35,048 bases of DNA from Mycobacteriales bacterium (GTDB lineage Bacteria > Actinomycetota > Actinomycetes > Mycobacteriales > SCTD01), in assembly GCA_040902655.1 (NCBI GenBank), contig JBBDWV010000017.1, forward strand, positions 126,509 to 161,556, given 5' to 3'. Made by a program: the position numbers and the translations under genes. Position 1 is the stretch's first letter. The number at the start of each line of letters is the position of its first letter. The notes below the pieces were generated by a model that had not been told where the DNA came from, searched no databases, and was given only the letters and a program-made list of their open reading frames with translations. This document shows positions 683 through 26,781 of the stretch, one piece after another.

Positions 683-1375
683 GTGCAGACTCGGCGCGTG
701 CCACCTGCTCCCGCCCGGATCCTGCTCGTGGAGGACGACGCGCCCATCCGGCAGGCGCTGGAGGCGGTGCTGCGGGCCGAGGGGTACGAGGTCGAGGCCC
801 AGCCGGACGGCTCCCGGGCCGAGAGGGTCGCGTCGAGCTTCTGCCCGGACCTGGCCCTGCTCGACGTGCGGCTGCAGCCCGGGCCCGACGGCTTCACGGT
901 CTGCCGGCAGCTGCGCCGCAGCCGCGACCTGCCGGTCATCTTCCTGACTGCCGCCGAGTCCATCGACGACCGGCTGGAGGGATTCCGGGTGGGCGGCGAC
1001 GACTACCTGGTCAAGCCGTACGAAGCCCGCGAGCTGCTGGCCCGCGTCGAGGCGCTGCTGCGCCGGTCCGGTCTGCCCGGTTCCGCGGTGCTGACCGTCG
1101 GGGCGGTGACCATCGACCCCCGCGCGGAAGCGGTCGCCGTCGACGGTGAGCCGGTCGAGCTGACCCGGATCGAGTTCGACCTGCTGCTCGCGCTGGCGCA
1201 GCGCCGCGGGCAGGTGATGTCCAAGGTGCAGCTGCTGACCCGGGTCTGGGGCTTCGACCGCATCGACACCAACCTCGTCGAGGTGCACGTCAGCTCGCTG
1301 CGGCGCAAGCTCGAGGCGGTCGGGCCGCGGGTGGTGCATACGGCGCGTGGTATCGGCTATGTGCTGCGCGGCTGA
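683..1375 (+). CDS. OmpR/PhoP-family response regulator
   Basis: A 230-residue two-component DNA-binding regulator. The receiver domain spans about residues 12-125, with the acidic pair E17/D18-D19, phospho-acceptor D61 (in LALLDVRLQ), T89 and K111 (in DYLVKPYEA). A winged-helix domain follows at about 135-230, with the usual ELTRIEFDLL and VHVSSLRRKLE stretches and a terminal GIGYVLRG. The start is GTG 683, and GTG 698 is an alternative. No ATG is available. The kinase at 1359 overlaps its 3' end, so the two are co-transcribed. I infer that this is the protein that binds the 11-bp CTTCAG direct repeats found upstream of the surface-protein genes. Members of this family commonly bind such repeats, but the link is not proven here. 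A TAGATT element at 665-670 could be its -10. No CTTCAG pair precedes the gene, so it is probably not autoregulated through that motif. Confidence 0.93.
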   Translation: MQTRRVPPAPARILLVEDDAPIRQALEAVLRAEGYEVEAQPDGSRAERVASSFCPDLALLDVRLQPGPDGFTVCRQLRRSRDLPVIFLTAAESIDDRLEGFRVGGDDYLVKPYEARELLARVEALLRRSGLPGSAVLTVGAVTIDPRAEAVAVDGEPVELTRIEFDLLLALAQRRGQVMSKVQLLTRVWGFDRIDTNLVEVHVSSLRRKLEAVGPRVVHTARGIGYVLRG

Positions 1376-2135
1376 TCGCCGGGGCACGCCGCCGACTGCG
1401 GGCGGCGGCCACTCCCTGCAGCCAGAGCTGACGGAGACCGTCGCCGCCCTGCAGAAGGCATTGGACGAGGCCACCGCCGCGGAGGCAGGTGGGAAGCAGT
1501 TCCTCGCCGACGCCGCCCGGCACCTGCACGCGCCGGTGAGCAGCATCCAAGACGGCGTGCAGGCGCTGCTGTACGGGTCGGTGGGGGAGGAGCGCGAACG
1601 GCTGTTGGCCGGCCTGGTCCGGGAGGCCGCCCGCGGCGCGCGGCTGGTGACCTCGTTGCTGCGGCTGGCCCGGCTCGATGCCGGCGAGCAGCTCGCGCCG
1701 GCGCCGTGCGACCTGGTCGGCGTCTGCACCACCCAGGCCGACCGGATCCGCCTGCGCTCCCCGCACCTGCTCGTCCACTTCCTCGCCCAGCCGCCGCTTC
1801 CGGCCGCGCCGCACCTGGACGGGCAGGCGGTACGGGAGATCCTGACCGAGCTGCTCGACAACGCCCGGCGGCATGCCACCAGCCGGATCATCGTCAACGT
1901 CGCGGCACCCGACGACCGGGTCGAGATCCGGGTGTGCGACGACGGCCCCGGCCTGCCGGCCGGCACGGCCGAGCGGGCCTTCGACCGCTTCACCAGCTTC
2001 GACGGACTGGAGGGCCCCGGGCTGGGGCTGTCCATCGCGCGGGAGCTGGCCCGCCTGCATGGGGGAGACCTCCACTACGAGGACGGGGCCTTCGTCCTGC
2101 GCCTGCCGGTCCAGCTCGAGGCGCCACCGGGCTGA
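1359..2135 (+). CDS. soluble sensor histidine kinase with degenerate H-box
   Basis: About 258 residues without any membrane segment or sensor domain: a short coiled N-terminus, a DHp region (about 45-110) and an HATPase domain (about 140-250). The ATP-binding boxes are complete: N-box (REILTELLDNARRH), G1 (CDDGPGLPAG), F-box (FDRFTSF) and G2 (GPGLGLSIA). The H-box is abnormal. It reads FLADAARHLHAPV, where the paralogue at 17453 and the family have FLADAAHQLRTPL. The canonical His position is therefore Arg54, with His55 and His57 nearby, and the Thr is Ala. It may be a poor autokinase, a phosphatase, or a heterodimer partner of the second kinase. The ATG at 1359 lies inside the regulator gene (17-base overlap), and GTG 1347 is an alternative start. 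It converges with the cupredoxin gene. Confidence 0.85.
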   Translation: MCCAADRRGTPPTAGGGHSLQPELTETVAALQKALDEATAAEAGGKQFLADAARHLHAPVSSIQDGVQALLYGSVGEERERLLAGLVREAARGARLVTSLLRLARLDAGEQLAPAPCDLVGVCTTQADRIRLRSPHLLVHFLAQPPLPAAPHLDGQAVREILTELLDNARRHATSRIIVNVAAPDDRVEIRVCDDGPGLPAGTAERAFDRFTSFDGLEGPGLGLSIARELARLHGGDLHYEDGAFVLRLPVQLEAPPG

Positions 2136-2180: not shown

Positions 2181-2672
2181 TCAGGTGGGGGCCGCCTCGG
2201 GGGTGCGGAACTCCGTGGCCATCCCCTTCTTGGAGTGCGGCTCGCCGTCGGCGTCGACGACGGTGCAGATCATCGCGTACCGCTGTCCGGGCAGCAGGTT
2301 GACGGCGAACGTTCCGGTGTCACCGGGCGGCCGGTCGTAGATGCCGGCGTAGGGCTCGACCAGCCGGCGTTTGGTCCCGCGGATCTGTTCCTGGATCGGT
2401 GGGAGGTCCTCGGGCAGCGGGATCAGGACCAGGTTGTGCGGGGACCGGCCGGCGTTGGTGAGCCGGAAGACCACCCGGCCGGCCGGGACCGGGGTGGCGA
2501 ACTCGAAGCGATGGTCCACCATCTGCACCTCGACCACCGCGGCCGCCGCCGGGGCGGCTGGCCGGCTTGCGGCGGCGGTCCCCCCGGTGCCGGGGGCGCA
2601 GCCGGTCAGGGTCAGAGCCAGGAGCCCGAGCAGCCCGAACGGCCAGCGCCCTCGGAGGGGCTGCCGGTTCAT
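2181..2672 (-). CDS. cupredoxin-like lipoprotein 1
   Basis: A 163-residue exported protein. Residues 1-25 form a lipoprotein signal with lipobox LTGC (Cys25), followed by an Ala/Pro linker and a cupredoxin-like beta-sandwich (about 45-158). Possible type 1 copper ligands are His in SPHNLVLI, Cys in AMICTVV, His in GEPHSKKGM and the Met of the same stretch, giving H...C-x9-H-x4-M. The same four residues and spacings occur in the paralogue at 7285. Copper binding is inferred from this pattern, and the long C-x9-H loop differs from plastocyanin (C-x2-H) and azurin (C-x4-H). The start ATG overlaps the stop of BNR protein 1 (ATGA, 2669-2672), so the two are translationally coupled. A membrane-anchored electron carrier or copper chaperone working with the propeller is plausible. 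Confidence 0.85.
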   Translation of the reverse strand: MNRQPLRGRWPFGLLGLLALTLTGCAPGTGGTAAASRPAAPAAAAVVEVQMVDHRFEFATPVPAGRVVFRLTNAGRSPHNLVLIPLPEDLPPIQEQIRGTKRRLVEPYAGIYDRPPGDTGTFAVNLLPGQRYAMICTVVDADGEPHSKKGMATEFRTPEAAPT

Positions 2673-4237
2673 GTCGCCACGACCGGCTGCCCGGCGGTGT
2701 CGGGTCGGCGGCGCCGGCCGGCGATCAGCCCGAGTGCCCCGGCGCCGACCAGCACGGCCCCCGCGGGTACGGCGTAGGAACGGCCGGTACGGGGCAGCTC
2801 GACAGTCGCGGTGAACACGTCCTGCCCGGTGCTGTCCGGCCGGGAGTTGCGGGTGTCGCCCCAGGCGGCCAGTGCGCCGCCCGGGCCGGACAGCAGCCCC
2901 AGCCGGGAGCCGAACTCGGCCCGGCCCATCGCCGAGGGATTGGCGTAGTGCTGGCCCACCAGCGAGCTGGAGGCGTGCCGGCTCAACTTCACGTTCGGCG
3001 CCCAGCTGCGGCCACCGTCGGTGGAGAAGGTGAGGTAGGCGTAGTTCAGGCCGTTGGAGGGGTGCCCGCGCCGGTCGTGGAACACCGCGTCCAGGCGGCC
3101 CTGCGGTGAGAAGTCCAGCTGCGGGGTGAACTGGCTCAGCCCGTTCCCGACCTCGTCGTCATTGAGCCGCTGCGCCTTTAGCCAGCTGCGGCCACGGTCG
3201 TCGGAGCAGCGGGCCAGCACGTCGGCGTCGCCGGAGCGGCCGTCGGCCCAGGCGACGCAGACCTGCTCGCCGTGCACGGCCAGCGCCGGTGGCGTCATGG
3301 TGAAGATGAGCAGCACCCGCTCATACGGCACCACCGCGTCCTCGACCACCGATGCCTCATCGAAACGCTCGCCGCCGTCGGTGGAACTGGCCAGCACCAC
3401 CGACCAGGGCTCCTGCCACACCGGCCCTTCCAGGCCCTGGTAGTCCACCGCGTCACGGCCCAGGTCGTAATAGCCGACGTGCACGCTGTGGTCCGGACCC
3501 AGCGCCAGCGCCGGGGCCACCACCCGGTCCCGCTGCGCGTCGCTGACCTGCACTGGCTCGGAGAAGCTCTGGCCGCCGTCGTCGGAGTGCGCCGACATGA
3601 TCGGGTTCGGCGGCGCCGGGAAGCCGCCCAGCGGCGGGTCCGCGGTGACCGCGATCCACACCAGATGCATCCGCCCCGCCTCGCCCAGATCAGGGTCGAT
3701 CGCCATCCGGACGGCGAAGCTCAGCGGACCGAGCACCCGGCGCGGTGGGCTGAACGTGCGTCCACGGTCCTCCGAGCTGGTCAGGAACGCCCCCATCGGC
3801 TCGTTGCCCCGCCCGGCCAGCCCCACGAACAGGTAGTACAGCCGGCCGTCGCGGTCGAACGCGACCTCCGGCGCATAGCACTTCTCCGCCCCCTCCGGCA
3901 GCACCCGCACCGGCACGACCGGCGCCCAGCTGCGCCCGCCGTCCCCCGAGACGTGCAGCGCGCAGCTGAAGTCCGGCGCGTCCAGCCGGTTCGCCAACGC
4001 CACGAACTGCCGGTCACCCGGGTCCGCGACGAGCACCGGAGAGTTGTTCGCCGGCGCGACGCTGCGGTCCATCGCCGTGACCGGAACCTCCTGGCCCACC
4101 CGGGCACCTGGTGCGCTGGCCGCCGAATCTCTCGGCAGCAATCCGCTGGTCAGCAGCACCACCCCGGCGAGCACCGCCACGGCACTGGCGAGAGCGAGCA
4201 CCCGGCGGCTGCGGCGAGCTACCGCACGTGCACCCAT
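2669..4237 (-). CDS. BNR/Asp-box beta-propeller surface protein 1 with LPRTG sorting signal
   Basis: A 522-residue protein: basic N-terminus plus a signal segment (about 12-32), a propeller (about 50-475) and a cell-wall-sorting-like C-terminus. Six Asp-boxes of the form S-x-D-x-G-x-[ST]-[WF] are visible, including SGDGGRSW, SEDRGRTF, SDDGGQSF, STDGGERF, SDDRGRSW and STDGGRSW, which fits a six-bladed fold. LPRTG at residues 481-485 (2783-2797) is followed by a hydrophobic helix and RRRR, as in sortase substrates. No sialidase FRIP motif is seen, so glycosidase activity is not claimed. Conserved Cys in DAPDFSCA and EKCYAPE recur in the two paralogues (5711 and 25135 genes). The start is the ATG at 4235-4237, since upstream codons run into the hairpin leader. 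It is coupled to the cupredoxin gene downstream. Confidence 0.88.
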   Translation of the reverse strand: MGARAVARRSRRVLALASAVAVLAGVVLLTSGLLPRDSAASAPGARVGQEVPVTAMDRSVAPANNSPVLVADPGDRQFVALANRLDAPDFSCALHVSGDGGRSWAPVVPVRVLPEGAEKCYAPEVAFDRDGRLYYLFVGLAGRGNEPMGAFLTSSEDRGRTFSPPRRVLGPLSFAVRMAIDPDLGEAGRMHLVWIAVTADPPLGGFPAPPNPIMSAHSDDGGQSFSEPVQVSDAQRDRVVAPALALGPDHSVHVGYYDLGRDAVDYQGLEGPVWQEPWSVVLASSTDGGERFDEASVVEDAVVPYERVLLIFTMTPPALAVHGEQVCVAWADGRSGDADVLARCSDDRGRSWLKAQRLNDDEVGNGLSQFTPQLDFSPQGRLDAVFHDRRGHPSNGLNYAYLTFSTDGGRSWAPNVKLSRHASSSLVGQHYANPSAMGRAEFGSRLGLLSGPGGALAAWGDTRNSRPDSTGQDVFTATVELPRTGRSYAVPAGAVLVGAGALGLIAGRRRRPDTAGQPVVAT

Positions 4238-4292
4238 ATATTTCAGCCTGTCAGTCTTGGTCAAGCGGAAGAAGCGCAAGAGCGGAAAAGCA

Positions 4293-4334
4293 GCAGTTGA
4301 CGGCCCGGCGGGGACCCGCCAGGCCGTCAACTGC
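4293..4334 (-). terminator. strong intrinsic terminator/attenuator hairpin
   Basis: A perfect 13-bp inverted repeat (GCAGTTGACGGCC at 4293-4305 and its complement at 4322-4334) encloses a further 5-bp GC stem with a GGAC loop. On the minus strand the stem is followed by TGCTTTTCC. It lies 15 bases past the stop of the five-Cys gene (4350) and about 55 bases before the BNR1 start. It would end or reduce transcription between them, giving high expression of the first gene and lower read-through into BNR1-cupredoxin. Confidence 0.75.
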
Positions 4335-4349
4335 GGAGCTGTGGTGTCT

Positions 4350-4895
4350 CTAGAGCGACAGCAGCCGGTACGGGGCGAGCATGCCCTTTCCATCGGCCCC
4401 GACGCAGAAGTTGGCAGCCTCACCCGTCGGTGGGTAGTAGTCCGTCCCGGCGGGGTCCCCCAGAGTTCCGGTCCAGGAGCCAGACCCGTCCACGACAGTC
4501 ATGGCGCCCAGGATCGTCGTCGTATCGGAGTTGTCGCTGAGGAAGCACCCGGTGCCGGAGATCATGGTCCACTGGGTGCCGTCGAAGGTGTAGGACTTCT
4601 CGTTGTTGTAGCGGACCTCGTACAGGCCGTCCGGCAACTGGTGGGGCTTGTTGTTGCACGTCGCCGGGGCGACGGAGGCGGTGATCGAGTCGGCCAGGTG
4701 GCCGGCGGCGGCCGTGGTCGGCTGCGTACAGTAGGCATGGGAGTTGCCAGTGCCCACAACGGTGACGTCGCCGTCGTGACCGTCCACCGTCATCTGCCCG
4801 ATGAACGTCACGCACGCAAACGCTGTGCCGCCCATCGCCATCAGTGCCGCTCCCACGGCGGACGCGAACAGCGTCCCTCTGCGGTAGTTCTTCAA
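4350..4895 (-). CDS. small secreted five-cysteine protein 1 (mature N-terminal Cys)
   Basis: A 181-residue protein with a signal peptide (1-27, ending TAFA) and a mature chain predicted to begin with Cys28 (ACVTFIGQMTV). The mature protein has five cysteines, at the N-terminus and in HAYC, PATC, GTGC and ANFC. The same five, in the same order, occur in the paralogue at 7910. The -3/-2/-1 residues A-F-A fit signal peptidase I better than a lipobox. There is no membrane segment, and I do not recognise the family. The start is TTG 4893-4895, 4 bases after a strong GGAGG. No in-frame ATG exists. An overlapping mini-frame (ATG GAG GAA CCT TGA) ends on this TTG. The gene is driven by the minus-strand CTTCAGG promoter (4951-4983) and ended by the hairpin at 4293-4334. 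Confidence 0.78.
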   Translation of the reverse strand: MKNYRRGTLFASAVGAALMAMGGTAFACVTFIGQMTVDGHDGDVTVVGTGNSHAYCTQPTTAAAGHLADSITASVAPATCNNKPHQLPDGLYEVRYNNEKSYTFDGTQWTMISGTGCFLSDNSDTTTILGAMTVVDGSGSWTGTLGDPAGTDYYPPTGEAANFCVGADGKGMLAPYRLLSL

Positions 4896-4950
4896 GGTTC
4901 CTCCATCAGATCAGATCTGGGATGGACCGACCGATCCAGCCTCATTTCTG

Positions 4951-4983
4951 ACCGTACGGGCGTTTCCTGAAGATAGCCTGAAG
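4951..4983 (-). promoter_or_regulatory. CTTCAGG direct-repeat promoter for five-Cys gene 1
   Basis: On the minus strand, CTTCAGG copies lie at 4977-4983 and 4966-4972 (11-bp period, spacer CTAT). They are followed by 9 nt and the -10-like TACGGT (4951-4956). The expected transcript start is near 4944, about 49 bases before the TTG start. This is one half of the large palindrome shared with the plus-strand promoter. The repeat occupies the -35 position, as expected for activation by an OmpR-type regulator. Confidence 0.72.
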
Positions 4984-5012
4984 ATCCAACATCTTCAGGC
5001 TATCTTCAGGAA
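4964..5012. repeat. perfect 22-bp inverted repeat, divergent operator
   Basis: Arms 4964-4985 and 4991-5012 are exact reverse complements around a CCAAC centre. Each arm contains two CTTCAGG copies 11 bp apart, so four regulator half-sites lie symmetrically between two divergent genes (4895 minus, 5071 plus). I read it as a shared activator site. No T-run follows either side, so a terminator is unlikely. Confidence 0.85.
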
Positions 5013-5025
5013 CCGGCTCTAAGTT
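4993..5025 (+). promoter_or_regulatory. CTTCAGG direct-repeat promoter for the 5071 gene set
   Basis: CTTCAGG copies lie at 4993-4999 and 5004-5010 (spacer CTAT), then 9 nt and TAAGTT at 5020-5025. The expected transcript start is near 5032, leaving a 39-base leader with a GGGAG ribosome site before ATG 5071. Confidence 0.75.
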
Positions 5026-5070
5026 CGTCTCAGAAGCAGCAGCGGGCTGCCGGTCAGGACAGGGAGCACC

Positions 5071-5619
5071 ATGAACATGCGGCGCATGAGCTTTGGGGTT
5101 GTGGGGATCAGCGTGGCTGGTCTGATGTGGGTGAGCGCGGCCTTCGCGTGCAGCCCGTTGCCGAAGGTGTCCTCGGTGTCCCCGGAGTCCGGCGCGCCGG
5201 GTGAGACTGTGCAGGTGGAGGGTGAGGTGCGCACGGGTGCACCGGTCGAGATCCGCTGGAACGGTGTGGGCGGTGAGTTGCTGGCGGTGAGCCGGGTCGG
5301 CGGTGACGGCATGTTGTCGGTGCCGGTGAGGATCCCTGACGTGAGCCCAGGTATCTACTCCCTGACGCTGGTCACCAGCGACGTCGGGGTAGCTCGCACG
5401 GCGGTGGAGGTCACCGCACCGGGCGGTTCGCTGCCCGTGGCGGCCCCGCAGCTGTGGCCGACGAGCCTGGCCGCTCAGCCGCTGGACGCGGCGTCAGCAT
5501 CTAACGGGGTCAGCTCACTGGGGGTGGCGTTGCTCGGGGTGGGCCTGGTCGGTTTGTTCGCCGGCACGACCGTGGCGGTCGCCCGTACCCGCCGGGTCCC
5601 CGCCGGCCCGCGCTCGTAA
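5071..5619 (+). CDS. small IPT/TIG-like membrane-anchored surface protein 1
   Basis: A 182-residue protein with a signal peptide (1-26, ending AAFA), a mature chain from Cys27 (ACSPLPKVSSV), one Ig-like IPT/TIG-type domain (about 30-118, with GAPGETVQVEG and APVEIRWNG), a linker, and a C-terminal membrane helix (about 147-170) with a basic tail. The paralogue at 16900 shares the A-x-A-C processing site, the APVEIRWNG stretch and the same C-terminal layout. IPT domains usually mediate binding or scaffolding, and no enzyme motif is visible. The start ATG follows a GGGAG site. It is the first gene after the plus-strand CTTCAGG promoter, and BNR2 follows after 91 bases, probably in the same transcript. 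Confidence 0.8.
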   Translation: MNMRRMSFGVVGISVAGLMWVSAAFACSPLPKVSSVSPESGAPGETVQVEGEVRTGAPVEIRWNGVGGELLAVSRVGGDGMLSVPVRIPDVSPGIYSLTLVTSDVGVARTAVEVTAPGGSLPVAAPQLWPTSLAAQPLDAASASNGVSSLGVALLGVGLVGLFAGTTVAVARTRRVPAGPRS

Positions 5620-5710
5620 GCCGACAGCCGGGCCGGACGTGCGCCGCCGCTGACGTGCTCACCCAGGAGCTTTCCTGTCCAGCGCCACCAGGCACGTCGA
5701 GGGTGCGGAG

Positions 5711-7288
5711 GTGAGCCGTGACCTCCTCCCGGCCAGAGTTCCGTCCCGCCGGTCGCTCCTGCTGACACTGGCCGCGGCAGCCGCACTCATCGGCGCCGTG
5801 CTCGCCGGCGGTGAGCTCCCGCCCCAAGACCCCGGCGCTGCCGGCCAGCCGCAAGTTCTTGATGAGGTGGCGGTCACGGCGATGAACCAGATCGTCGGGG
5901 TGTCGAACAACTCCCCGATGATCCTTGCCGACCCGGCCGAGCCGCGTTTCGTGGTGATGGCGAACCGCCTGGACGCGCCGGACTTCAGTTGCGCGCTTCA
6001 GGTGTCGGGCGACGCCGGGCGCAGCTGGGTGTCGGCGCGCCCCGTTCCGGTTCTGCCTGCGGGGGCGCAGAAGTGCTACGCCCCGGAGGTCGCCTTCGAC
6101 CGTGCTGGCCGGTTGCATTACCTGTTCGTCGGGTTGGCCGGCGCGGGTAACGAGCCGGTCGGGGTGTTCCTGACCACCTCCGAGGACCGCGGCCGGACGT
6201 TCACCGAGCCGCGGCAGGTGCTCGGGGCGCGTAACTACGCCGTCCGGATGGCGGTCGACCCTGAGCTCGGTGAGACCGGGCGTCTGCACCTGGTGTGGCT
6301 CGCCGCGACGTCCGAGCCGTCGCTGGGTGGTTTCGGTCCGCCACCGAACCCGATCCTGACCGCCTACTCCGACGACGGTGGCCGGACGTTCACCGACCCT
6401 GTGCAGGTCAGTGATCCGGCTCGGGAGCGGGTGGTCGCTCCGGCGCTGGCGTTGGGTCCGGACTCGAGTGTGCACGTCGGCTTCTACGACCTGGGCCGGG
6501 ACGCGATCGACTATCAGGGCCTGGAGGGGGCGGTGTGGGAGCAACCTTGGACGTTGCTGCTGTCGACCTCCCGCGACGGCGGTCGCCGCTTCGAGCCCGC
6601 GCGGGTGGTGGATGCGCAGATTGCCCCCCCCGAACGGGTGATGCTGATCTTCACGATGGCCCCGGCCGCGCTGGTCGCCGGCTCCGGTGGGCTGGTGTGC
6701 GCGGCCTGGACCGACGCCCGCAACGGCGACGCCGACAGCCTCGCGCGCTGTTCCCCCGACCACGGCCGGACCTGGCAGGACATCACACGGCTCAACGACG
6801 ACCCGCTGGGCAACGGCGCCCGGCAGTACCTGCCCCGGCTCTCGCTGTCCCCACAAGGACGCTTGGACGCGGTCTTCTTCGACCGACGGGACGACCCGGC
6901 GAACGTGCTCAACCACCTCTACCTGACCTGGTCGGCTGACGGCGGGCGCAGCTTCACACCGAACGCGCAGATCTCCCGCGCACCGTCGGACACCCAGATC
7001 GGTCAGCAGTACGTACACGCCTCAGCCCGCGGCCAGTACGAGATCGGAGCCCGCCTGGGTCTGCTTTCCCAGCGCGTCGGGGCCGTCGCGGTCTGGCCCG
7101 ACACCCGCCACTCCGAGTCCGGCGGCACCGGCCAGGACCTGTTCGCCGCCACCGTCGGCCTGCCCGACGCAGGTCGGCGGTTCGGGACGGTCGAGATCGT
7201 CGGAACTGCCCTGATCCTGGCAGTACTGATCGCTGTAGCGACCCTCGGCCGGCGCCACCGGCGGCAGCGTTCCCAGGCTGCCGCGTGA
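5711..7288 (+). CDS. BNR/Asp-box beta-propeller surface protein 2 with LPDAG sorting-like signal
   Basis: A 525-residue paralogue of the 2669-4237 product. It has an N-terminal signal (about 12-36), six Asp-boxes (SGDAGRSW, SEDRGRTF, SDDGGRTF, SRDGGRRF, SPDHGRTW, SADGGRSF), the conserved NRLDAPDFSCA and QKCYAPEVAFD stretches, and a C-terminal hydrophobic helix with a GRRHRRQR tail. LPDAG stands at 484-488, exactly 42 residues from the end, as LPRTG does in paralogue 1, so it is probably a variant sortase signal. No sialidase FRIP motif is seen. GTG 5711 is the apparent start but has GGAG directly against it, so the start is uncertain. The stop overlaps the next start (GTGA, 7285-7288). Confidence 0.87.
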   Translation: MSRDLLPARVPSRRSLLLTLAAAAALIGAVLAGGELPPQDPGAAGQPQVLDEVAVTAMNQIVGVSNNSPMILADPAEPRFVVMANRLDAPDFSCALQVSGDAGRSWVSARPVPVLPAGAQKCYAPEVAFDRAGRLHYLFVGLAGAGNEPVGVFLTTSEDRGRTFTEPRQVLGARNYAVRMAVDPELGETGRLHLVWLAATSEPSLGGFGPPPNPILTAYSDDGGRTFTDPVQVSDPARERVVAPALALGPDSSVHVGFYDLGRDAIDYQGLEGAVWEQPWTLLLSTSRDGGRRFEPARVVDAQIAPPERVMLIFTMAPAALVAGSGGLVCAAWTDARNGDADSLARCSPDHGRTWQDITRLNDDPLGNGARQYLPRLSLSPQGRLDAVFFDRRDDPANVLNHLYLTWSADGGRSFTPNAQISRAPSDTQIGQQYVHASARGQYEIGARLGLLSQRVGAVAVWPDTRHSESGGTGQDLFAATVGLPDAGRRFGTVEIVGTALILAVLIAVATLGRRHRRQRSQAAA

Positions 7289-7848
7289 GGACCAGGCCGG
7301 TTCTGCCCGTCGCCGTCCTCAGCGCGGCGCTGCTGTCAGCCTGCCAGTCACCCACCGGAGCGCCCGTCGCGGCTCTGCCACCGGGCCCGCAGGTAGTGCA
7401 GGTCACGATGACCGAGTACGGCTTCAGCTACGACCCGACGATCACCGCCGGCCGGGTGCTGTTCCGGGTTCGCAACACCGGCACTGTCGTGCACAGCCTG
7501 AACATGCTGCCCTTGACCGAGGACATCCCCCCGATCGACGAGCAGATCCGCGGTGACCGGCGGCTGGCTGTGCGCCCCTTCGCCGGCTTCGAAAGCCTTC
7601 GGCCAGGAGCCGACACGACGTTCGCCGTCGATCTGGCACCCAACACCCGGTACGCCTTGCTGTGCTTCGAGGCCGACGATGAGGGAGTGTCACACCTGTT
7701 GCGTGGGATGAACTCCGAGTTCCGGACGGCGCGCGCGGGCCCCCCACCCCCACCCCCACAGCCACCCCAGCAGCGACAGCGGCACATCGAGCCCGTAGAA
7801 AGCCGAACGCTGACTTCAGAGTTTCTTCAGGTTCGGCTGCCACACTGA
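7285..7848 (+). CDS. cupredoxin-like lipoprotein 2
   Basis: A 187-residue protein. The lipoprotein signal ends in LLSAC (Cys20), followed by a cupredoxin-like domain (about 35-152) and a Pro/Gln-rich C-terminal extension (about 153-187) absent from paralogue 1. The candidate metal ligands match the paralogue: His in VVHSLNML, Cys in ALLCFEAD, His in GVSHLLRGM and the following Met (C-x9-H-x4-M). The stretches EDIPPIDEQIRG and FAVDL are also shared. Its GTG start overlaps the BNR2 stop, the same coupling as in the inverted copy. The last codons overlap the CTTCAG promoter of the next gene, so the C-terminal extension partly encodes a regulatory site. Confidence 0.84.
   Translation: MRTRPVLPVAVLSAALLSACQSPTGAPVAALPPGPQVVQVTMTEYGFSYDPTITAGRVLFRVRNTGTVVHSLNMLPLTEDIPPIDEQIRGDRRLAVRPFAGFESLRPGADTTFAVDLAPNTRYALLCFEADDEGVSHLLRGMNSEFRTARAGPPPPPPQPPQQRQRHIEPVESRTLTSEFLQVRLPH
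7814..7846 (+). promoter_or_regulatory. CTTCAG direct-repeat promoter for five-Cys gene 2
   Basis: CTTCAGA 7814-7820 and CTTCAGG 7825-7831 (11-bp period, spacer GTTT), then 9 nt and CACACT at 7841-7846. It lies inside the 3' end of the cupredoxin gene. The -10 is the weakest of the set. The expected start is near 7853. Confidence 0.68.
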
Positions 7849-7909
7849 CCGGGCCACCAGCCGGTGAGGCGCAACTTACTCGGGGGCACCCCCAGAAGAG
7901 GACATGGAC

Positions 7910-8536
7910 ATGACATGCAGATCTCTGACGCGCAAGGCATCGTTGCTCGGCTTCACAGCCGGCACGCTCGTGCTGTCGATGACAGGCAGCGCCTACGCCT
8001 GCACCTACTTCTACGGCAAGCTCACGGTGACAGCGACAAGCCCAACCGATCCGCTCCTGACCAGTAGCGCGTTCACCGACGGAGCAGGGGGCTATTCACC
8101 TAACGCGCTGGAAGAGGGCGGAGTACACGGGTACTGCCCCATACCGGCACCCGTAGACAACCGCACTGGTTCGGCGGCCTCCGCAGCTTATCCCGCGCAA
8201 GGCATGTATAAGGCAGAAACCTTCGGTCTGCAGGTCGGGCCCACCACGACATGCGTGACGCAGAACCAATTGACGGGTGAGCTAGGGGGGAACGCGACCC
8301 ATGATGTGCGCTGGCTGAACATGAAGAACGCGGTCAGTCAGTACTGCGTGTCTCCGAATAACGATGCTGTGATTGAAAGCAAGGGCTCGATTACGCTGAC
8401 GGATGGAGTGGGCTCTGGAGTCTTCCCACAGGGGACAGCGGCCGCTGGCGAAGTAGTCAAGGTCTGCATCAGGAACGATGAGTCATTGTCAAGCACCGGA
8501 GCCTCGGCCCCGGATGTGAAGCTCCTCATGATCTGA
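7910..8536 (+). CDS. small secreted five-cysteine protein 2 (mature N-terminal Cys)
   Basis: About 208 residues: a signal peptide (1-30, ending SAYA) and a mature chain from Cys31 (ACTYFYGKLTV). Five mature cysteines match those of the 4350-4895 protein (N-terminal Cys, HGYC, TTTC, QYC, VKVC), along with an F-x-G-x-[LM]-T-V start and a T-[LV]-x-DG-x-GS stretch near the C-terminus. An odd cysteine number leaves one residue free for a mixed disulfide, a dimer or lipidation. ATG 7904 is also in frame, but GAGG (7898-7901) is better spaced from ATG 7910. There is no membrane segment and no known family recognised. Codon use is less GC-rich than in its neighbours (for example around 8290-8400). 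Confidence 0.75.
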   Translation: MTCRSLTRKASLLGFTAGTLVLSMTGSAYACTYFYGKLTVTATSPTDPLLTSSAFTDGAGGYSPNALEEGGVHGYCPIPAPVDNRTGSAASAAYPAQGMYKAETFGLQVGPTTTCVTQNQLTGELGGNATHDVRWLNMKNAVSQYCVSPNNDAVIESKGSITLTDGVGSGVFPQGTAAAGEVVKVCIRNDESLSSTGASAPDVKLLMI

Positions 8537-9029
8537 GATGCTGAAGATCACCTGTGAGTCGCAGGGTGCAGTCCTCGGATCTTCAGGGTGTCGCTGATCC
8601 TGTGAGCGGGACCGCGGGCAGTAGACGGATTGGGGACCGCCCTGCTCGGGACCGTCCTTTTGCCTCGTTGCGGGGCACGCCATGCATGGTGACCTGTCCC
8701 ACATCACCAAGCGCGCGTGTCCCGCTGCGACTCGAAGGATCCCATCGTGCGTCGTCCCCTGCTCGCCCTGTGAGGCTGGAGCGTCGCGGTGAAGGCTACT
8801 GCACGCGCCGTTGTGGTTGGCGGCGGCGCCCGCAGGTGTGGCCGAGGATAGTCGGCCGCTGCAGGCCACTTCAGCCGTCACCGGCGTGAGCCGGTTGCGC
8901 AGTGACTGGACAGCGTTGCTGGGCAGGCGTCTGGTCGGGTGGTCGCCGACTCGGCTGTCGCGGTTGCCGACAACCGCCGGATCTCTGCGTGGCAACGGGC
9001 CTAGGCACGTGCGGGAGACCGGGGCGTCG
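8537..9029. other. gene-poor 493-base stretch with inverted CTTCAG half-sites and a possible gene relic
   Basis: No convincing gene is seen. CTGAAGATC (8541-8549) and GATCTTCAG (8578-8586) form a 9-bp inverted repeat around 28 bases. This may be a weak terminator of the five-Cys gene or a single-copy inverted version of the regulator half-site. A GTG at 8789 opens the short peptide KATARAVVVGGG, which resembles the N-terminus of FAD-dependent oxidoreductases of the dimethylglycine/sarcosine dehydrogenase type, but it ends after 20 codons. The frame leading into the NHL gene from 8811 shows no protein-like pattern. Confidence 0.4.
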
Positions 9030-11528
9030 ATGCAGATGAGCCTGCGCGCCGGCAGGGCGGGCTTGGTGGTCGCGCTGTGCCTGTTGGTCACCTTGGCGGC
9101 GCCGGCGCCGGCGGCTTCACCGGGGTTGCTGCGGGCTCCGGGCCCGGTGGCCACGGTGGACACCGTGGCCGGACCCGGTTTCTGTGCAGGAACCTCAACC
9201 GCGGATCCGGCTTCGTCCGCGGTGGGCGCGGTCGCTGCCGATAATGCTGGTGCCTTGTGGTTCAAGTCTGATGCTGCGGATGACGGCTTGGTGACCACGG
9301 TGTTGAACAGCGGGTACGTCGTGGTGAACCGGGTGGGTCCAGCGAGGTCTACCGGCCCGGCTGCGAAGGGAGCGGATGCTCGCCCGAGGTCGGCGTCCTC
9401 GCTGACGGCTGACGGCACCGGCGGGGTGCTTGTGGCGACCTCGAGCGCGATCCTGCAACTCGACAAGGGACTGATGACTGTGGCCGGGGCCAGCTCGCCG
9501 ACGACGGCCCCGGCGGGACTACCAGGCTCAGCCAGCGTCGGGGATGGTGGTCCGCTGCGGGCGGCCCGGTTCACCCGGATCACTGCTGTCACCGCCGACC
9601 GCGCGGGCAACGTGTACGTCGCGGACGAGATCGAGCCCGCAGCAGCCAGGATCAGCCTGCGTTTTTTGAACCGCAGCAACCAGCCGGTGACTTTCTATCC
9701 CGGCACCCCCGACGCGCTCACAGTCCCTGCGGGGATGATCGACACGATCGCGGGTTCCGTCGGGAGCACGGCCGGCTCGGGGCCTGTGGGTTCATCGGTG
9801 GAGGCGGTCGCGCCGGCGCTGGCGGTCGCACAGAGGCGGTTGTATCTAACGGCCGCGCTTGGCGGGCCGCGTCCCCGGGCGCAGGTGCGGATGCTGAACC
9901 TGGCCGGAACGGAGCTGTCGGCTCACGGCGTGACGCTCGCCGCTGGCGCGTGGGAGGTTCTCACCGAGGTGGTCGGCGGCGCCGGGGCCTTTGCCGTTGG
10001 CGTGCGGCCGGTGTCAGCGCTGTCGGGTATCGCCGCGGATCGGGAGGGGAACCTGTTCCTGGCCGAGCAGGCCAATCATCGGATCAGCCGACTGGACCCG
10101 GCCGGAACCGTGGCGACGGTGGCCGGGACGGGTGTGGCCGGGTTCGACGGCAACGACCTGCCGGCTGTGCAGGCCCGTCTTGATCGGCCGGTGGGGGTGG
10201 CGATCGGGTCGGGTGGACGGCTGTTCATCTCCGATGCCGGCAACGCCCAGGTCCGGGTAGTGGACCGGGCCGGGACGATCCGGGCCGCGCTGGGCAACGG
10301 TGCGGCGCTGCGCTGGACCTGTGCGGCGGGGGCGGGGGCAGGGTCGGCGGGGGCAGTGCAGCCGGAGACGGCACGGGTCGGCAAACCCGACAGTCTCACT
10401 GCCGATGCGAGCGGCAATGCCTATTTCGCGAGCGCACTGCTCGGCCGGGTGTACGGCATCGCGTCGTCGGGCGAAGTGCGCACTGTCATCGACGCTGGAA
10501 CTGCCGGTGCTGCGCCACCGCCGGACGGTCTTGGCCAGGTGAGCAAGATGACGGCGGGCCCATCCGGGGCGCTGTACCTCGGGGACCAGGCCGGGGTTCA
10601 TGTGCTGAACCTGGGTAGCGCACCGCTGAGCGCGCACGGCCAGCTCATCGCCCCGGGTGCGCTCGCCGCTGTCGCCGGCGGTGCCAGGGCCTCCACGTTC
10701 GTGCTCGACGGGAAGGGGAACCTGCTGCTGGCTGACGACGACGACACGCCGGAGAGTTCCTACCGCGGCCGGGTGCGCCAGGTCGATCCGCAGGGCACGA
10801 TCACAACAGTGCTTCAGGGTGCCGGGCGCCCTGCGGATCGCGGCATGGACCTCACCCGGTGCTGCGGCTACATCAGGGGCCTGACCGCCGACCTCGCCGG
10901 CAACCTCTACCTCGCCGACGTCGGGGTGGAGCCCCCCCCGCGTGTGGATGGGCGGATTGTCGCAGCCAGCCCCTCGGTACACCGGGTGTGGTTCGTCAAT
11001 CGGAGCGACGTGCCAGTGGTAGCGCATGGTGTGCCGGTGCCGCCGGGCGAGACCGCGTTGATCGCCGGCACGGGTAGCGCCGGCACCGATCAGATCGGTG
11101 CTGCGGCGCTGCAGACACGCCTCCCCTCGGTGGGGCCGCTGGCCCTGGACCGGTCGGGCAACCTGTACATCGTCAGCCGCGCCGACCACACCATCCGTCA
11201 GCTCGACCCCCGCGGCCTGCTCACGACCGCTGTCGGTACTGGGCAGGGGAGCTTCAACGGCGATGAGCGCAAAGGCCCGCTGACGGCGCTGAGCGCGCCC
11301 ACCGACGTGGTGCTCGACGCCTGCGGCAACCTGCTCATCGCCGACGCCAACAACGACCGGGTCCGTCGGTTGAACCTGGTGACGTCCTGCCCAGCTGCTC
11401 TGGCCGTAGCGCCACCCCCTGCCGGCAGCCGGTCGCTGCCGGTTCCGGCCGCTGCGGCTGCCGCGCTCGTACTGATCGGGACGGCCACGGTGCTGAGCAC
11501 GCGCCTGCTGCGAAGGCGCCGCCGCTGA
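9030..11528 (+). CDS. NHL-repeat beta-propeller surface protein
   Basis: About 832 residues: a signal peptide (about 1-30, ending APAPAAS), a long extracellular region built of NHL-type repeats, and a C-terminal membrane helix ending in RRRRR. Clear repeats include NLFLAEQANHRISRLDPAG, RLFISDAGNAQVRVVD, NLYIVSRADHTIRQLDP and NLLIADANNDRVRRLN, each followed by a T-V-A-G-T-G or similar turn. NHL propellers bind proteins or glycans, and no catalytic motif is visible. Related inserts (FLNRSNQPVTFYPGTP, WFVNRSDVPVVAHGVPVPPG) appear twice. The start is ATG 9030 (ATG 9036 is an alternative), which gives a normal signal peptide, and the upstream extension is rejected. No CTTCAG pair precedes it, so it may rely on read-through or another promoter. 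Confidence 0.83.
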   Translation: MQMSLRAGRAGLVVALCLLVTLAAPAPAASPGLLRAPGPVATVDTVAGPGFCAGTSTADPASSAVGAVAADNAGALWFKSDAADDGLVTTVLNSGYVVVNRVGPARSTGPAAKGADARPRSASSLTADGTGGVLVATSSAILQLDKGLMTVAGASSPTTAPAGLPGSASVGDGGPLRAARFTRITAVTADRAGNVYVADEIEPAAARISLRFLNRSNQPVTFYPGTPDALTVPAGMIDTIAGSVGSTAGSGPVGSSVEAVAPALAVAQRRLYLTAALGGPRPRAQVRMLNLAGTELSAHGVTLAAGAWEVLTEVVGGAGAFAVGVRPVSALSGIAADREGNLFLAEQANHRISRLDPAGTVATVAGTGVAGFDGNDLPAVQARLDRPVGVAIGSGGRLFISDAGNAQVRVVDRAGTIRAALGNGAALRWTCAAGAGAGSAGAVQPETARVGKPDSLTADASGNAYFASALLGRVYGIASSGEVRTVIDAGTAGAAPPPDGLGQVSKMTAGPSGALYLGDQAGVHVLNLGSAPLSAHGQLIAPGALAAVAGGARASTFVLDGKGNLLLADDDDTPESSYRGRVRQVDPQGTITTVLQGAGRPADRGMDLTRCCGYIRGLTADLAGNLYLADVGVEPPPRVDGRIVAASPSVHRVWFVNRSDVPVVAHGVPVPPGETALIAGTGSAGTDQIGAAALQTRLPSVGPLALDRSGNLYIVSRADHTIRQLDPRGLLTTAVGTGQGSFNGDERKGPLTALSAPTDVVLDACGNLLIADANNDRVRRLNLVTSCPAALAVAPPPAGSRSLPVPAAAAAALVLIGTATVLSTRLLRRRRR

Positions 11529-11536
11529 CTCGATAA

Positions 11537-11552
11537 GCGCGCTCCGGCGCGC
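11537..11552 (+). terminator. short GC hairpin after the NHL gene
   Basis: GCGCGC-TCCG-GCGCGC, a 6-bp stem with a tetraloop, lies 8 bases after the NHL stop. There is no T-run, so it is at best a weak terminator or a 3'-stabilising hairpin. Confidence 0.35.
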
Positions 11553-11587
11553 CGTCCACCTTGAACGGCGTGACGATCCCCGCCCGG

Positions 11588-11620
11588 CTTCAGGGATTCT
11601 TCAGGAAGCTGCGTCAGCAT
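11588..11620 (+). promoter_or_regulatory. CTTCAGG direct-repeat promoter for the Kelch/IPT-FtsH operon
   Basis: CTTCAGG 11588-11594 and 11599-11605 (spacer GATT), then 9 nt and CAGCAT at 11615-11620. The predicted start near 11627 excludes the upstream in-frame codons from 11561 and supports ATG 11672, which has GAGGAG at 11654-11659. Confidence 0.73.
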
Positions 11621-11671
11621 ATCTGTCAGGCCCGCGCCACCCGTGCATCAGCTGAGGAGCACACCCGCCCG

Positions 11672-14600
11672 ATGACCGACCCGTTCCTTCCCACCGCCGA
11701 GGGCCGCTCTGGCTGGACCGGCCACCGACCGCGCCACCATCGTCGCGGTGTCCGCCGGCTCGCGGCGCTGACTGCCGTCGCGGCTCTGGCAGCCTCCGCG
11801 CTGGCGCTGCCCGCTGCGTCCGCTGCAGCTTTGCCTTCAGCGGCGGCCGGTGCCGGGTCGTGGTCAGCTGCCGCTCCACCAGCGAAGCCGGTGTTCTATC
11901 CGCGCTCAACGCGGTTGGCTGACGGGCGGGTGCTCGCCGCCCACCGCGAGCCCGCGGAAACAGATGTGGACGGTTGCGGATCTTTCCCCCTGCCAAGGTG
12001 CCTCACGCAGTTCGCGATCTATGACCCCAGCACAGACCGGTGGACCCCAACAAGCAATCCCGGCATCCGCAAGTCGATCGCCTTGATGACCGCGTTGCGG
12101 GATGGAGGTGCTCTTGTCGCCTTTGTAAGCAGCGGGACTAGCGACTACGTACCGCCACAGCATTTCCGGCCGAGTCCGGCCGGGGGAACCTGGACAGCCG
12201 CGAAGAACTCGAGTTATTACCGGGCTAACTTCTCCTCCCACACGTTGGTCGAAGGCACGCAGGAGCAGTGCGGTCCCCACTGCGGCAAGGTGCTGATCGC
12301 CGGCGGCGAAAATGATAGCCCTAACCCGCATCCCAATGACCGTGATGTATCGCGCAGCGCCGAGCTGTTCGATCCGGTTACGGACAGCCTCACGGTGACG
12401 GCACCCATGCCCGACAGGCACAATACGGGTAGCGGGACCTCACTACCCGACGGCCGCATCCTCACCACGTGCGGCACCTACCTTTTTGATCCGAAGAATG
12501 AATCGTGGACGCTTGCGGGGGACCCCCCCCTCGGTGGTGACTCACCTTGCGGCTCCCCCGGGTCCTCGCGGTCGCTGCGTTTGCTCGACGGCAAGGTGCT
12601 CGCTTTTTCCTCCAACTCGGCTGGCGTGTTTGATCCGGCTGCGGGAGAAGTGGATCCGTTGTCAGGTCGCCCGAGAGGCAGGTGGAGCGCGATTGCTACC
12701 TGTCCGCAAAACTGTTTTGCTCCGGTGTTGTTGCCCGACGGCACGGTCCTGGCGATCAACCGGCTCAAAGTCGCCCACGTCTTCGATCCGGCCAGCCTCG
12801 AGAATTCGTCCGTTCCGCTGTGGACGCGGGCACCGGATCCGGCACCCGACGATTCTACCGCGAAGTTTGTCACGCTGGATGGCCTCGGTGGGGGGGTTGG
12901 CAACAAGGTTCTGGCCGCTGGGGAGAGCGGCCCGAAGGACGCTCGGGTGGGGGTGGCGCGGCTGTTCACGCCTGCCGGTCCGGTGTTGGAGCTGCTGGGG
13001 GCTTCGGCGGCGGCCGGGTTCAGCTGTGGTGGCACAGAAGTGACGCTGTCAGGACGTGGCCTGGCTGAAGCGTCGGAGGTGCGGTTCGGGAAGGTCTCGA
13101 TCCCCAGAAAGGACTTTGTGCGCCTGACGGACACCTCGGTCACGGTGAACAGCCCGGCGCATGTTCCGGGTGAGGTGGGGGTGTCGGTGATCGTGCAGGG
13201 GCGGGGGGTGGCCGGGCCGGCGTTCCCGACCTTCACCTTCACCCGCCCCGGCCCGGGGCGAATCGATTTGCTGGACCCGAACCGGGGCCGCGCGGCGGGT
13301 GGTACCGGCGTGAACATCAGGGGTCAATTCGCCGGTGAGTGCGTGCGGTCGGTCTCCTTCGGCGACGCGCCTGTGTCTTTCACAGTGGGTCCTGCCGTCG
13401 GGGAGCAGGGGACGGCGAAGGTCATCGAGGTGATCAGTCCGCCGCACGCTCCGGGTGAGGTTCGGGTGGGGGTGCAGATCGACCCCGGCCCTGTTGCTGA
13501 GGACCCTGCTGTTCCAGGTGCTGTGGGGCCGCTGGTTCCCGCGCCCCCCACGTCGCCGCCGCGGCCGGCATCACCGACCGTGCCGGCCCTGCCCGCCTCA
13601 CCCGGCGCCGATGTCTTCACCTACCTGAGCCTGCCGCAGGTCAGCGGGATCGAGCCGTCGTCCGGGTCGGGCTTGGGGGGTGGTGAGGTGCAGATCAGTG
13701 GCAGTGGTTTCCGGGATCCTGAGCAGGATCCGGAGCAGGAGGTGCCCGCGGATGCGGCCGCACCGAAGGTGACCATCGACGGGCAGCCGGCGACGGTGGT
13801 GAGTTATTCGGACACGAAGGTGACGGTGCAGGTGCCGCCGCTGGCTGCCGGCAGGCCGTCCGGGGAGAAGGTGCCGGTCGCGGTCAGCACCGACCCGCGG
13901 GGGGACTCGAAGCCGTCCCCGTTGTTCACCTACCGCCCGGGGGTATCCGGGCTCACTCCGCCGTCGGGGCCGATGGAGGGCGGCACGGCCGTACGCCTTG
14001 CCGGTAGAGGGCTGGCGCAGGTGAGCGAGGTGCAGCTGCGCGGGCAGCCGGCGACGATCACAGCCCGCTCCGAGAGCGAGTTGGTGGTGACCACCCCGCC
14101 GCATTCGGTGGCCGAGGCGGTGCCGGTCCAGGCGCTGGTCGGGGAGTTGCCGTCGTTGGAGAAGGTGCTGTTCTCCTACGACGCGCCGCCGCCGCCTCCG
14201 CCGGGTGCGCAGGCCAATGAGGGTGCGCCGCCGCCGCAGCAGAACGCTTCGGGAGGTCAGCCGGCGCCGCCGGCTGGCACCGGTGGTGCTCCGGCACCGG
14301 CGCCTGGGCCGGCTCCTGCGCCGGCTCCCGCGCCAGGGCAGGCACCCGCGCCGGCGTCCGGTCAGGCTCCGGCTCCGCAGCCGGGTCAGGCTCCGCAGCC
14401 GGGTCAGGCTCCGCAGCCGGGTCAGGCTCCGGCGCCCGGTCAGGCTCCGGCGGGTGCGCAGGCGCCCGCGGCCGGTCAGGCTCCGGCGCCGGGTCAGGCT
14501 GCTGGGCAGGTGCTGTCGGCGGGGCAGGCGCCGGTGCCGGGGCAGGCGGGAGTGCAGGCGCCGGCGGTGGCGCAGGCGCCGGGTCCGGTGTCGGCTGGCG

Positions 14601-18210: not shown

Positions 18211-18243
18211 CTTCAGGTCATCTTCAGGAACGGCTGGGACTGT
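18211..18243 (+). promoter_or_regulatory. CTTCAGG direct-repeat promoter for the receiver-like gene
   Basis: CTTCAGG 18211-18217 and 18222-18228 (spacer TCAT), then 9 nt and GACTGT at 18238-18243. It starts 2 bases after the kinase stop. The predicted start falls at about 18250, the A of the next ATG, so the transcript would be leaderless. Confidence 0.74.
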
Positions 18244-18249: not shown

Positions 18250-18690
18250 ATGGTGACCGACGGGGCGGGGCTGGTGGCGGTGATCTGCGAGAGTCAACCG
18301 GCGGTGGCCGCGGCGATGGTGCACACCCTCGCCGACCTGTACGGGCTGCGGATCGCCGCGACCGTACGCACCGGCACCCAGGTGCTGGCCGCCGCCGCGG
18401 CCGCCCGGCCCGACCTGGCCGTGGTCGACCTGGCCTCGGCCGCAACGTACGGGCTGCGGATCGTCGGCGAGCTGCACCAGATCGTCCCCGACTGCGCCGT
18501 CATCCTGGCCGCGCCACCGGAATTCGGCGGCCTGCGGCTGGACGCCGTCGCCGCCGGCGCCATCACCCTGGTGGTCACCAGCGACCTGCGGCCGTTGCAG
18601 TGCGGCATCGAGCGACTCATCCACACCCACGGCGAGAACTGCCCCAGCTGCGCCGCCCGCGAACGCGAGACCTACTTCCGCAACGCCTAG
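18250..18690 (+). CDS. stand-alone receiver-like protein with C-terminal CxxC
   Basis: A 146-residue protein resembling a response-regulator receiver domain. It has an alternating beta/alpha pattern, a candidate phospho-acceptor D60 in LAVVDLAS and an acidic residue E14 in VAVICESQP. The usual second acidic residue is Cys13, and the conserved Lys near the fifth strand is missing (TLVVTSDLRPL). There is no DNA-binding domain. The C-terminus holds NCPSCAARERE, a possible zinc or redox pair. It may be a phosphate sink, an adaptor for the kinases, or a pseudo-receiver. ATG 18250 has no ribosome site, consistent with a leaderless start from its own CTTCAGG promoter. Confidence 0.75.
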   Translation: MVTDGAGLVAVICESQPAVAAAMVHTLADLYGLRIAATVRTGTQVLAAAAAARPDLAVVDLASAATYGLRIVGELHQIVPDCAVILAAPPEFGGLRLDAVAAGAITLVVTSDLRPLQCGIERLIHTHGENCPSCAARERETYFRNA

Positions 18691-18851: not shown

Positions 18852-19115
18852 TCAGCGGGACTGGTAGACCTCGCGCCGGTGCCCGAGCCGCAGGACGAGG
18901 ACCAGCAGCTGGTCGTCCTCGATCTCGTACACGATCCGGTAGTCGCCGGTGCGGACCCGCCACTCTCCTGCGCCCCCGACGAGCTGCGTCGCAGAGGGTG
19001 GCCGGGGTTGCTCGGCAAGAAGTTCGAGAGCGGCCTGAATGCGGCGCCGCGCCGCAGCGTCGAGCGTGCGCAGCTGCCGCGTCGCCATCGGCGACAGGGT
19101 GACGAGGTAGGTCAT
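18852..19115 (-). CDS. RelE/ParE-family toxin
   Basis: An 87-residue protein with the RelE fold pattern: MTYLVTLSPMATRQLRTLDAA-like N-terminus, a helix pair, then GEWRVRTGDYRIVYEIEDD and LRLGHRREVYQS. In RelE relatives this is a ribosome-associated mRNA endonuclease, with Arg, Tyr and His residues of the C-terminal strands acting on RNA. Its ATG overlaps the antitoxin stop (ATGA, 19112-19115), the usual coupling for such pairs. Length and motifs are complete, so it looks intact. Confidence 0.9.
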   Translation of the reverse strand: MTYLVTLSPMATRQLRTLDAAARRRIQAALELLAEQPRPPSATQLVGGAGEWRVRTGDYRIVYEIEDDQLLVLVLRLGHRREVYQSR

Positions 19116-20349: not shown

Positions 20350-20357
20350 CCCACGCT

Positions 20358-26748: not shown

Positions 26749-26781
26749 ACGGTAGGGCCCGAAGCTGAAGATTGGCTGAAG
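26749..26781 (-). promoter_or_regulatory. CTTCAGC direct-repeat promoter for BNR3-FtsH2
   Basis: On the minus strand, CTTCAGC begins at 26781 and again at 26770 (spacer CAAT, 11-bp period), then 9 nt and TACCGT at 26749-26754. The expected start is near 26742. It is the only site with C as the seventh base in both copies, but the spacing is identical to the others. Confidence 0.7.

Follow-up and report, generated by a model that had tools for sequence, protein, structure and literature searches.

Two diverged five-cysteine secreted proteins in duplicated copies of a three-gene module of a Mycobacteriales bacterium

How are two small secreted proteins with little sequence in common related, and what might the cysteine at their predicted mature N-terminus do? 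The question is raised by a stretch of 35,048 nucleotides from a Mycobacteriales bacterium (GenBank assembly GCA_040902655.1, contig JBBDWV010000017.1, positions 126,509 to 161,556; the whole stretch is hereafter the window). A first-pass annotation, made from the sequence alone, had proposed that two open reading frames, 4350-4895 (minus strand) and 7910-8536 (plus strand), encode a new-looking family of five-cysteine (five-Cys) proteins, and that these share a mature N-terminal Cys with two small IPT proteins of the same regulon. Both reading frames are present, and we term their products CysA and CysB. They stand next to genes for a BNR propeller protein and a cupredoxin-like lipoprotein, as follows (a caret marks predicted cleavage):

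4350..4895, minus strand: CysA gene, five-Cys secreted protein; signal peptide 4815-4895, mature part 4353-4814
2669..4423, minus strand: BNR propeller protein, module 1 (BNR_2, 2.5e-12; 61% identical to the 5711 protein); an open reading frame whose true start is probably further in
2181..2672, minus strand: cupredoxin-like lipoprotein, module 1 (LTG^C; Cupredoxin_1 E 0.0022, below cut-off)
5711..7288, plus strand: BNR propeller protein, module 2 (BNR_2, 3.3e-14)
7285..7848, plus strand: cupredoxin-like lipoprotein, module 2 (LLSA^C; no Pfam match above cut-off)
7904..8536, plus strand: CysB gene; ATG at 7904 or 7910, mature part 8000-8533

A-x-A is the cleavage motif of signal peptidase I, and both signal peptides combine it with K/R in the n-region and a hydrophobic core, as a predicted substrate of this enzyme should. 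The CysA gene starts with TTG, with GGAGG located 5' of it; the predicted junction, ...GGTAFA^CVTFIGQMTV, leaves a mature part of 154 amino acids with Cys at positions 1, 29, 53, 90, and 137. In CysB, whose signal peptide itself carries one additional Cys, the predicted junction is ...TGSAYA^CTYFYGKLTV, and the mature part of 178 amino acids has Cys at 1, 46, 85, 116, and 156. The A-x-A-C end, the mature start fitting F-x-G-x-[ML]-T-V, and the five Cys in the same order, on which the proposal was based, are found in both proteins. Apart from a possible lipid on Cys1, neither has an obvious membrane anchor. Third-position GC of the mature part is lower in CysB (0.70) than in CysA (0.90), which may reflect recent import or relaxed codon use.

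Sequence comparison indicates that CysA and CysB are homologous and far diverged. The precursors align over 200 columns with 25% identity (BLASTP, E = 3e-7), which bears out the low overall identity noted at first pass, and shuffle tests support the kinship that had been claimed with it. Global alignment of the mature parts gave z 6.3, or z 3.8 with Cys scored zero, and none of 1000 shuffles reached either score. An alignment anchored on the five Cys gave z 5.9 (0 of 500 shuffles), with the signal located in C1-C2, C4-C5, and C5-end and none between C2 and C4. Local alignment was weaker: its score was reached by 2 of 1000 shuffles, and by 62 of 1000 with Cys scored zero.

In module 1, CysA is followed on its strand by the BNR gene and then by the lipoprotein gene, while module 2, on the opposite strand, runs from the BNR gene through the cupredoxin-like gene to CysB, which places the five-Cys gene first in one copy and last in the other. 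Because identity between the copies is 61% for the BNR proteins, 42% for the cupredoxin-like lipoproteins, and 25% for CysA and CysB, the window appears to hold two divergent copies of one module, with the five-Cys gene changing fastest.

Do CysA and CysB belong to a known family? Neither protein had a match above noise in Pfam, NCBIfam, PHROGs, or PDB sequences; the weak lines at E 0.15 to 5.3 (Pfam, PHROG, PDB) were treated as noise. Searches of 61 genomes were not convincing for either, the one extra match of CysA (E 0.007) spanning 44 residues and that of CysB (E 0.005) 83 residues. A profile search of the kind that the first-pass annotation had suggested, with a two-row CysA/CysB profile against 396 genomes of the phylum, found no convincing homologue beyond the pair. 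When 24 genomes of the family were searched to E 10, three extra matches appeared, only at E 0.19-0.79. The A1 search gave 20 pattern stretches in genome contigs and 26 in viral contigs, none of them confirmed; the BNR protein had no pattern match in viral contigs, and CysA against plasmids and CysB against phages gave nothing convincing. Neither the five-Cys family, the module, nor the regulatory box described below was found in titles or abstract openings among the literature matches listed.

Two further five-Cys genes came to light in the gene surroundings of IPT, BNR, and cupredoxin-like matches, not by direct search. They lie in the same module in genomes G171 and G197, which belong to two classes other than that of the window:

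Stretch L097 (G171): BNR gene 10441-11937; cupredoxin-like gene 10000-10422; five-Cys gene 9386-9874; then an IPT gene
Stretch L130 (G197): five-Cys gene 10403-11023; BNR gene 8627-10390; cupredoxin-like gene 8073-8864

The G171 protein (AWA^C) has a mature part of 136 amino acids with Cys at 1, 24, 30, 67, and 118, and the G197 protein (AWT^C) one of 180 amino acids with Cys at 1, 41, 54, 80, and 146. Gene order in G171 (BNR, cupredoxin-like, five-Cys) is that of the CysB copy, and order in G197 (five-Cys, BNR, cupredoxin-like) that of the CysA copy. Every one of the four mature parts begins with a Cys and has exactly five in total, and all share a hydrophobic-Cys-hydrophobic triplet whose Cys stands 17 to 34 residues before a hydrophobic C-terminus. 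A family defined by an N-terminal Cys, exactly five Cys, and an adjoining BNR/cupredoxin-like pair takes in all four modules found. We surveyed 26 distinct BNR genes (30 rows, four being repeats of one gene by our count). A five-Cys gene lies beside all four that are directly adjoined by a lipoprotein gene (A7 profile, E up to 1e-20) and beside none of the other 22, whose available flanks are uneven (2 bases to 16 kb); one of the 22 is the second BNR gene of G171, 2 kb from the G171 module. A scan for N-terminal-Cys proteins with 4 to 6 Cys, over 150 overlapping stretches (1,062,239 bases), yielded 10 candidates, of which only these same four were both five-Cys and coding-like; the signal peptide of the G197 gene, masked by an over-long reading-frame start in the first scan, was recovered in a later one. 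The new-family reading is well supported for CysA and CysB and, with two more genes in the same module but no significant sequence similarity to the pair, probable for the two distant proteins.

The remaining candidates of the scan were rejected. An apparent five-Cys protein at L148:6565-7251 begins as a single-Cys IPT gene and crosses masked bases into an apparent wrong frame; of five others, four look out-of-frame (second-position GC 0.76-0.84) and the fifth, with TAAC, is a lipoprotein containing four Cys. Searched against 16 genomes of its family, the G171 protein gave besides itself only a weak part-match in G105 (E 1.2e-4, one internal stop). On contig C46, G197 has a strong BNR relative (E 4e-216); it is adjoined, by eye, by FtsH- and NHL-like genes and by no lipoprotein or five-Cys gene.

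Is the N-terminal Cys shared more widely? Both IPT proteins named at first pass have A-[FW]-A followed by Cys, as had been read, and this is the single Cys of their mature part:

5071..5619, plus strand: IPT1, single-Cys IPT-family protein, AFA^C, with a C-terminal hydrophobic segment
16900..17460, plus strand: IPT2, single-Cys IPT-family protein, AWA^C

The four five-Cys signals end in AFAC, AYAC, AWAC, and AWTC, one protein each. A seven-member IPT profile detected relatives in 29 of the 396 phylum genomes; among the 30 loci returned, A-[FWY]-A-C is present in the nine strongest (E up to 1e-20) and not in the 21 weaker ones. All of 17 aligned small IPT proteins have A-x-A-C with an aromatic x, and A, A, and C are among their eight invariant columns. 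A profile (A5) made from these 17 gave 44 matches at E up to 1e-20, 39 of them with A-[FWY]-A-C, a share biased upward since the members used were motif-bearing, and with many matches coming from few related assemblies; at looser cut-offs the counts were 43 of 59 (E 1e-10) and 44 of 65 (1e-5). The five exceptions comprise AMAC (L073), LASGC (L080), a Cys-less AFAP (L055), and two long proteins with a weak single domain (L037, L050), which leaves a Cys at +1 in 41 of the 44 (the 39, AMAC, and LASGC). Of 89 signal-plus-Cys candidates, a filter outside which CysB and the G197 protein fall, 41 have an aromatic residue at -2, and we read all of these as IPT-family (39) or five-Cys (2) proteins. What had been described as a shared N-terminal Cys thus holds as a conserved A-[FWY]-A-C motif, and to read common chemistry into it is plausible. 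Two IPT genes on one congener contig (L015:853-1449 and 5650-6240) have identical printed N-terminal ends and are probably a recent duplication.

Common control of these genes is suggested by a tandem box, CTTCAG-N5-CTTCAG, and by a two-component system encoded in the window:

4967..4983, minus strand: tandem box CTTCAGGCTATCTTCAG, 71 bases upstream of the CysA start codon
4993..5009, plus strand: tandem box, 61 bases upstream of IPT1
7814..7830, plus strand: tandem box CTTCAGAGTTTCTTCAG, 73 (79) bases upstream of CysB, inside the 3' end of the cupredoxin-like reading frame
11588..11604, plus strand: tandem box, 67 bases upstream of the ATG of a kelch/IPT gene
18211..18227, plus strand: tandem box, 22 bases upstream of the ATG of the receiver-only gene
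26765..26781, minus strand: tandem box, 49 or 55 bases upstream of the third BNR gene
683..1375, plus strand: OmpR-type response regulator, probable reader of the box (Response_reg, Trans_reg_C; 60% identical to the regulator of genome G292)
1347..2135, plus strand: histidine kinase (HATPase_c, HisKA)
18250..18690, plus strand: receiver-only protein behind the box (Response_reg E 1.8e-5, below the Pfam cut-off)

The box, with half-sites 11 bases apart, occurs exactly seven times in the 3,558,883-base genome, six times in the window; the same pattern read backwards does not occur in the genome. With up to 2 mismatches, 7 were found in the window against 1.62 expected. All six share the orientation of the gene they precede, at 22 to 79 bases from its start. 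Contig C56 carries the seventh, in front of a receiver gene and 23 bases from its ATG; the encoded protein and the receiver-only protein of the window share 59% identity. An OmpR-type regulator adjoining genes with tandem boxes of 11-bp period is the mark of an OmpR/PhoB-type regulon, with binding predicted, and the six genes probably form one. The single regulon proposed for CysA, CysB, and the two IPT proteins is now supported by the common box, which precedes CysA, CysB, and IPT1 and is itself well supported. Genome G292 belongs to a class other than that of the window. There, four CTTCAG half-sites in a row stand before a receiver gene, near the 60% identical regulator, and a one-mismatch box lies 78 bases before an IPT gene; the G292 receiver protein is 42% identical to that of the window over 69 residues. 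Because regulator and box co-occur in the window's genome and in G292, the regulator at 683-1375 probably reads the box. Three receiver-only proteins behind a tandem box are known from two classes (18250-18690, L069:9171-9719, and L057:7110-7628). The tail of two contains Cys (NCPSC, DCPSC), and such proteins are possibly a feedback part of the circuit.

The arrangement resembles PhoP/OmpR-type regulons in its Trans_reg_C response regulator and its tandem repeats of 11-bp period. For PhoP of Mycobacterium tuberculosis, direct repeats of 7-bp motifs with a 4-bp spacer are described (PMC4832192). The half-sites of the window differ in being CTTCAG, and regulator binding to them is predicted.

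What could such a regulon produce? The explanation that we tentatively favour, and to which taken as a whole we would not yet commit, is a three-gene surface module in an OmpR-type regulon, with CysA and CysB as paralogues of a fast-evolving small secreted family. The OmpR-type two-component system would bind CTTCAG-N5-CTTCAG and set expression of a membrane-anchored BNR propeller, a cupredoxin-like lipoprotein, and a five-Cys protein. After Sec export, signal peptidase I would cut A-[FWY]-A^C and expose an N-terminal Cys. Two disulfides may then pair four of the Cys within a domain that is rich in Gly, Ser, Thr, and Asn, probably beta-rich, and devoid of an obvious membrane anchor, and the odd, N-terminal Cys would stay unpaired within the chain and link the protein to a surface partner. 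An intermolecular role is proposed for Cys1 because five is an odd number. In most IPT proteins, the two of the window included, Cys1 is the sole mature Cys and needs no intramolecular partner, so that the simplest common role would be a link between chains. The best candidates for the partner would be the single-Cys membrane-anchored IPT proteins, predicted to share the regulon and the N-terminal Cys.

The main rival to cleavage by signal peptidase I is lipidation. CysA, CysB, and the IPT proteins would then be lipoproteins with an atypical lipobox, to which Lgt adds diacylglycerol and which LspA cuts before the Cys. We consider this unlikely, yet it deserves the most attention. Like known Lgt/LspA substrates, the five-Cys proteins have a Sec signal peptide directly followed by a conserved Cys; the +1 Cys in 41 of 44 strong IPT matches, and its standing as a single Cys there, is the lipoprotein pattern; the L080 homologue, with LASG^C, comes near a real lipobox; and no other obvious membrane anchor exists in CysA and CysB. 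However, each of the four five-Cys proteins departs at both -3 and -2 from the consensus [LV]-[ASTVI]-[GAS]-C given in PMC8689077; they have A-[FWY]-[AT]-C, whereas the lipoproteins of the same module have LTGC and LSAC. An aromatic -2 residue marks only IPT and five-Cys proteins among the 89 candidates, and the residue at this place in the listed cupredoxin-like lipoproteins is A, T, S, P, or V. The IPT proteins, moreover, already carry a C-terminal hydrophobic segment in their alignment.

A second possibility, which we hold to be rather improbable, is that the five-Cys proteins are diverged IPT/Ig-like domains that lost their anchor and gained cysteines. They have the signal-peptide end of the single-Cys actinomycete subfamily of IPT/TIG (PF01833), a similar C-T-x-x start, and the same kind of box as upstream of IPT1. 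The mean score of CysA against 37 IPT sequences was reached by 2 of 400 shuffles, and its best score of the 37 by none of 500, uncorrected for choice of the best. Yet the means of CysB and the G171 protein were reached by 195 and 131 of 400 shuffles, and maxima with the choice of best included by 36 (CysA), 278 (CysB), and 308 (G171) of 400. Profile-profile comparison (hhalign, 37 IPT sequences) gave a probability of 0.1 to 0.4%, and neither CysA nor CysB matched the IPT/TIG profile at E 1. With four more Cys and no evident C-terminal anchor, the five-Cys proteins also differ in architecture, and IPT kinship, when tested in these ways, was not supported.

It is more doubtful still that Cys1 or another Cys engages in copper or redox chemistry with the cupredoxin-like lipoprotein, through metal transfer or thiol oxidation. 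A five-Cys gene accompanies all four BNR genes that a lipoprotein gene directly adjoins, and none turned up beside 21 other BNR genes (flanks 2 bases to 16 kb). Three aligned cupredoxin-like lipoproteins have an invariant His, Cys, His, Met set in type-1 copper order; by eye, the lipoprotein of G197 has these residues too. Against this, the cupredoxin label is weak, with one Pfam match below cut-off and none for the other lipoproteins; three strong matches of the lipoprotein profile (L105, L125, and L128) have no BNR or five-Cys gene in their short flanks; and the five-Cys proteins lack CxxC and differ widely in Cys spacing. Convergence of unrelated proteins on Cys and signal peptide is very improbable, since against the 62 of 1000 shuffles that reach the local, Cys-zeroed alignment stand no shuffles at all for the Cys-masked global and Cys-anchored scores, and the flanking genes are duplicated as well, as the 61% identical BNR pair attests.

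Several observations weigh against the module-and-linkage explanation. An odd Cys count does not tell which Cys is unpaired, and a physical link between five-Cys and IPT proteins is, like binding of the box by the regulator, a prediction. AlphaFold2 models of the two mature proteins were unusable (pLDDT 31 and 32). The module was found in three genomes only. No box within one mismatch occurs in L097 or L130; outside the window's genome the box was seen only in G292, where the stretches examined contain no five-Cys gene. Cys-anchored scores of CysA or CysB with the G171 and G197 proteins were reached by 35, 58, 93, and 123 of 500 shuffles, and plain global alignment with the G171 protein by 31 and 103 of 1000. 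The Cys-anchored score of G171 with G197 was reached by 12 of 500, the C-terminal segment alone giving z 3.8. Kinship of these two proteins with CysA and CysB accordingly rests on gene position and architecture.

Other genes of the locus recur elsewhere. An FtsH-type protease with two AAA domains and one M41 in one chain is encoded at 22497-25325 (minus strand), and also at L059:7862-10468 (minus strand). FtsH-like, BNR, and single-Cys IPT genes occur together in L015, L017, L054, L056, and others (by eye; Pfam for L015), some of these loci also carrying, by eye, ParA/MinD-like ATPases and family-5 solute-binding proteins; in G235 a long FtsH-like reading frame (868 amino acids, by eye) adjoins BNR and IPT genes. 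A second FtsH/BNR/IPT cluster (L016, G008) looks decayed, with the BNR gene broken across frames, one IPT shortened to 88 amino acids, and FtsH in two frames. A literature search for this recurring gene set found nothing. The locus further includes a toxin-antitoxin cluster (18852-22377) with ParE/Phd-YefM (18852-19396), HicB (19760-20497), and HipA with an HTH protein (20309-22377); a small neighbour of HicB (20104-20349) has no Pfam match.

The findings add an uncatalogued secreted family. Its gene partners are defined, and the regulatory boxes it shares form a compact set specific to the genome, so that its function can be approached through its regulator and module instead of its sequence. 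The aromatic-Ala-Cys signal end raises a testable question, namely the fate of an N-terminal Cys without a lipobox. A bolder and improbable idea is that A-[FWY]-A-C could be a dedicated export-and-attachment signal of Actinomycetota, distinct from the lipobox. Signal peptidase I would then expose an N-terminal Cys on two unrelated surface families, single-Cys IPT and five-Cys. The thiol would serve as a covalent handle (by disulfide or other modification) through which both are assembled with their BNR and copper-protein partners, all controlled by a single two-component regulon. If the members from different classes are truly related, the family would keep its position, cysteines, and export signal while detectable similarity is lost, and profile searches alone would label such members orphans.

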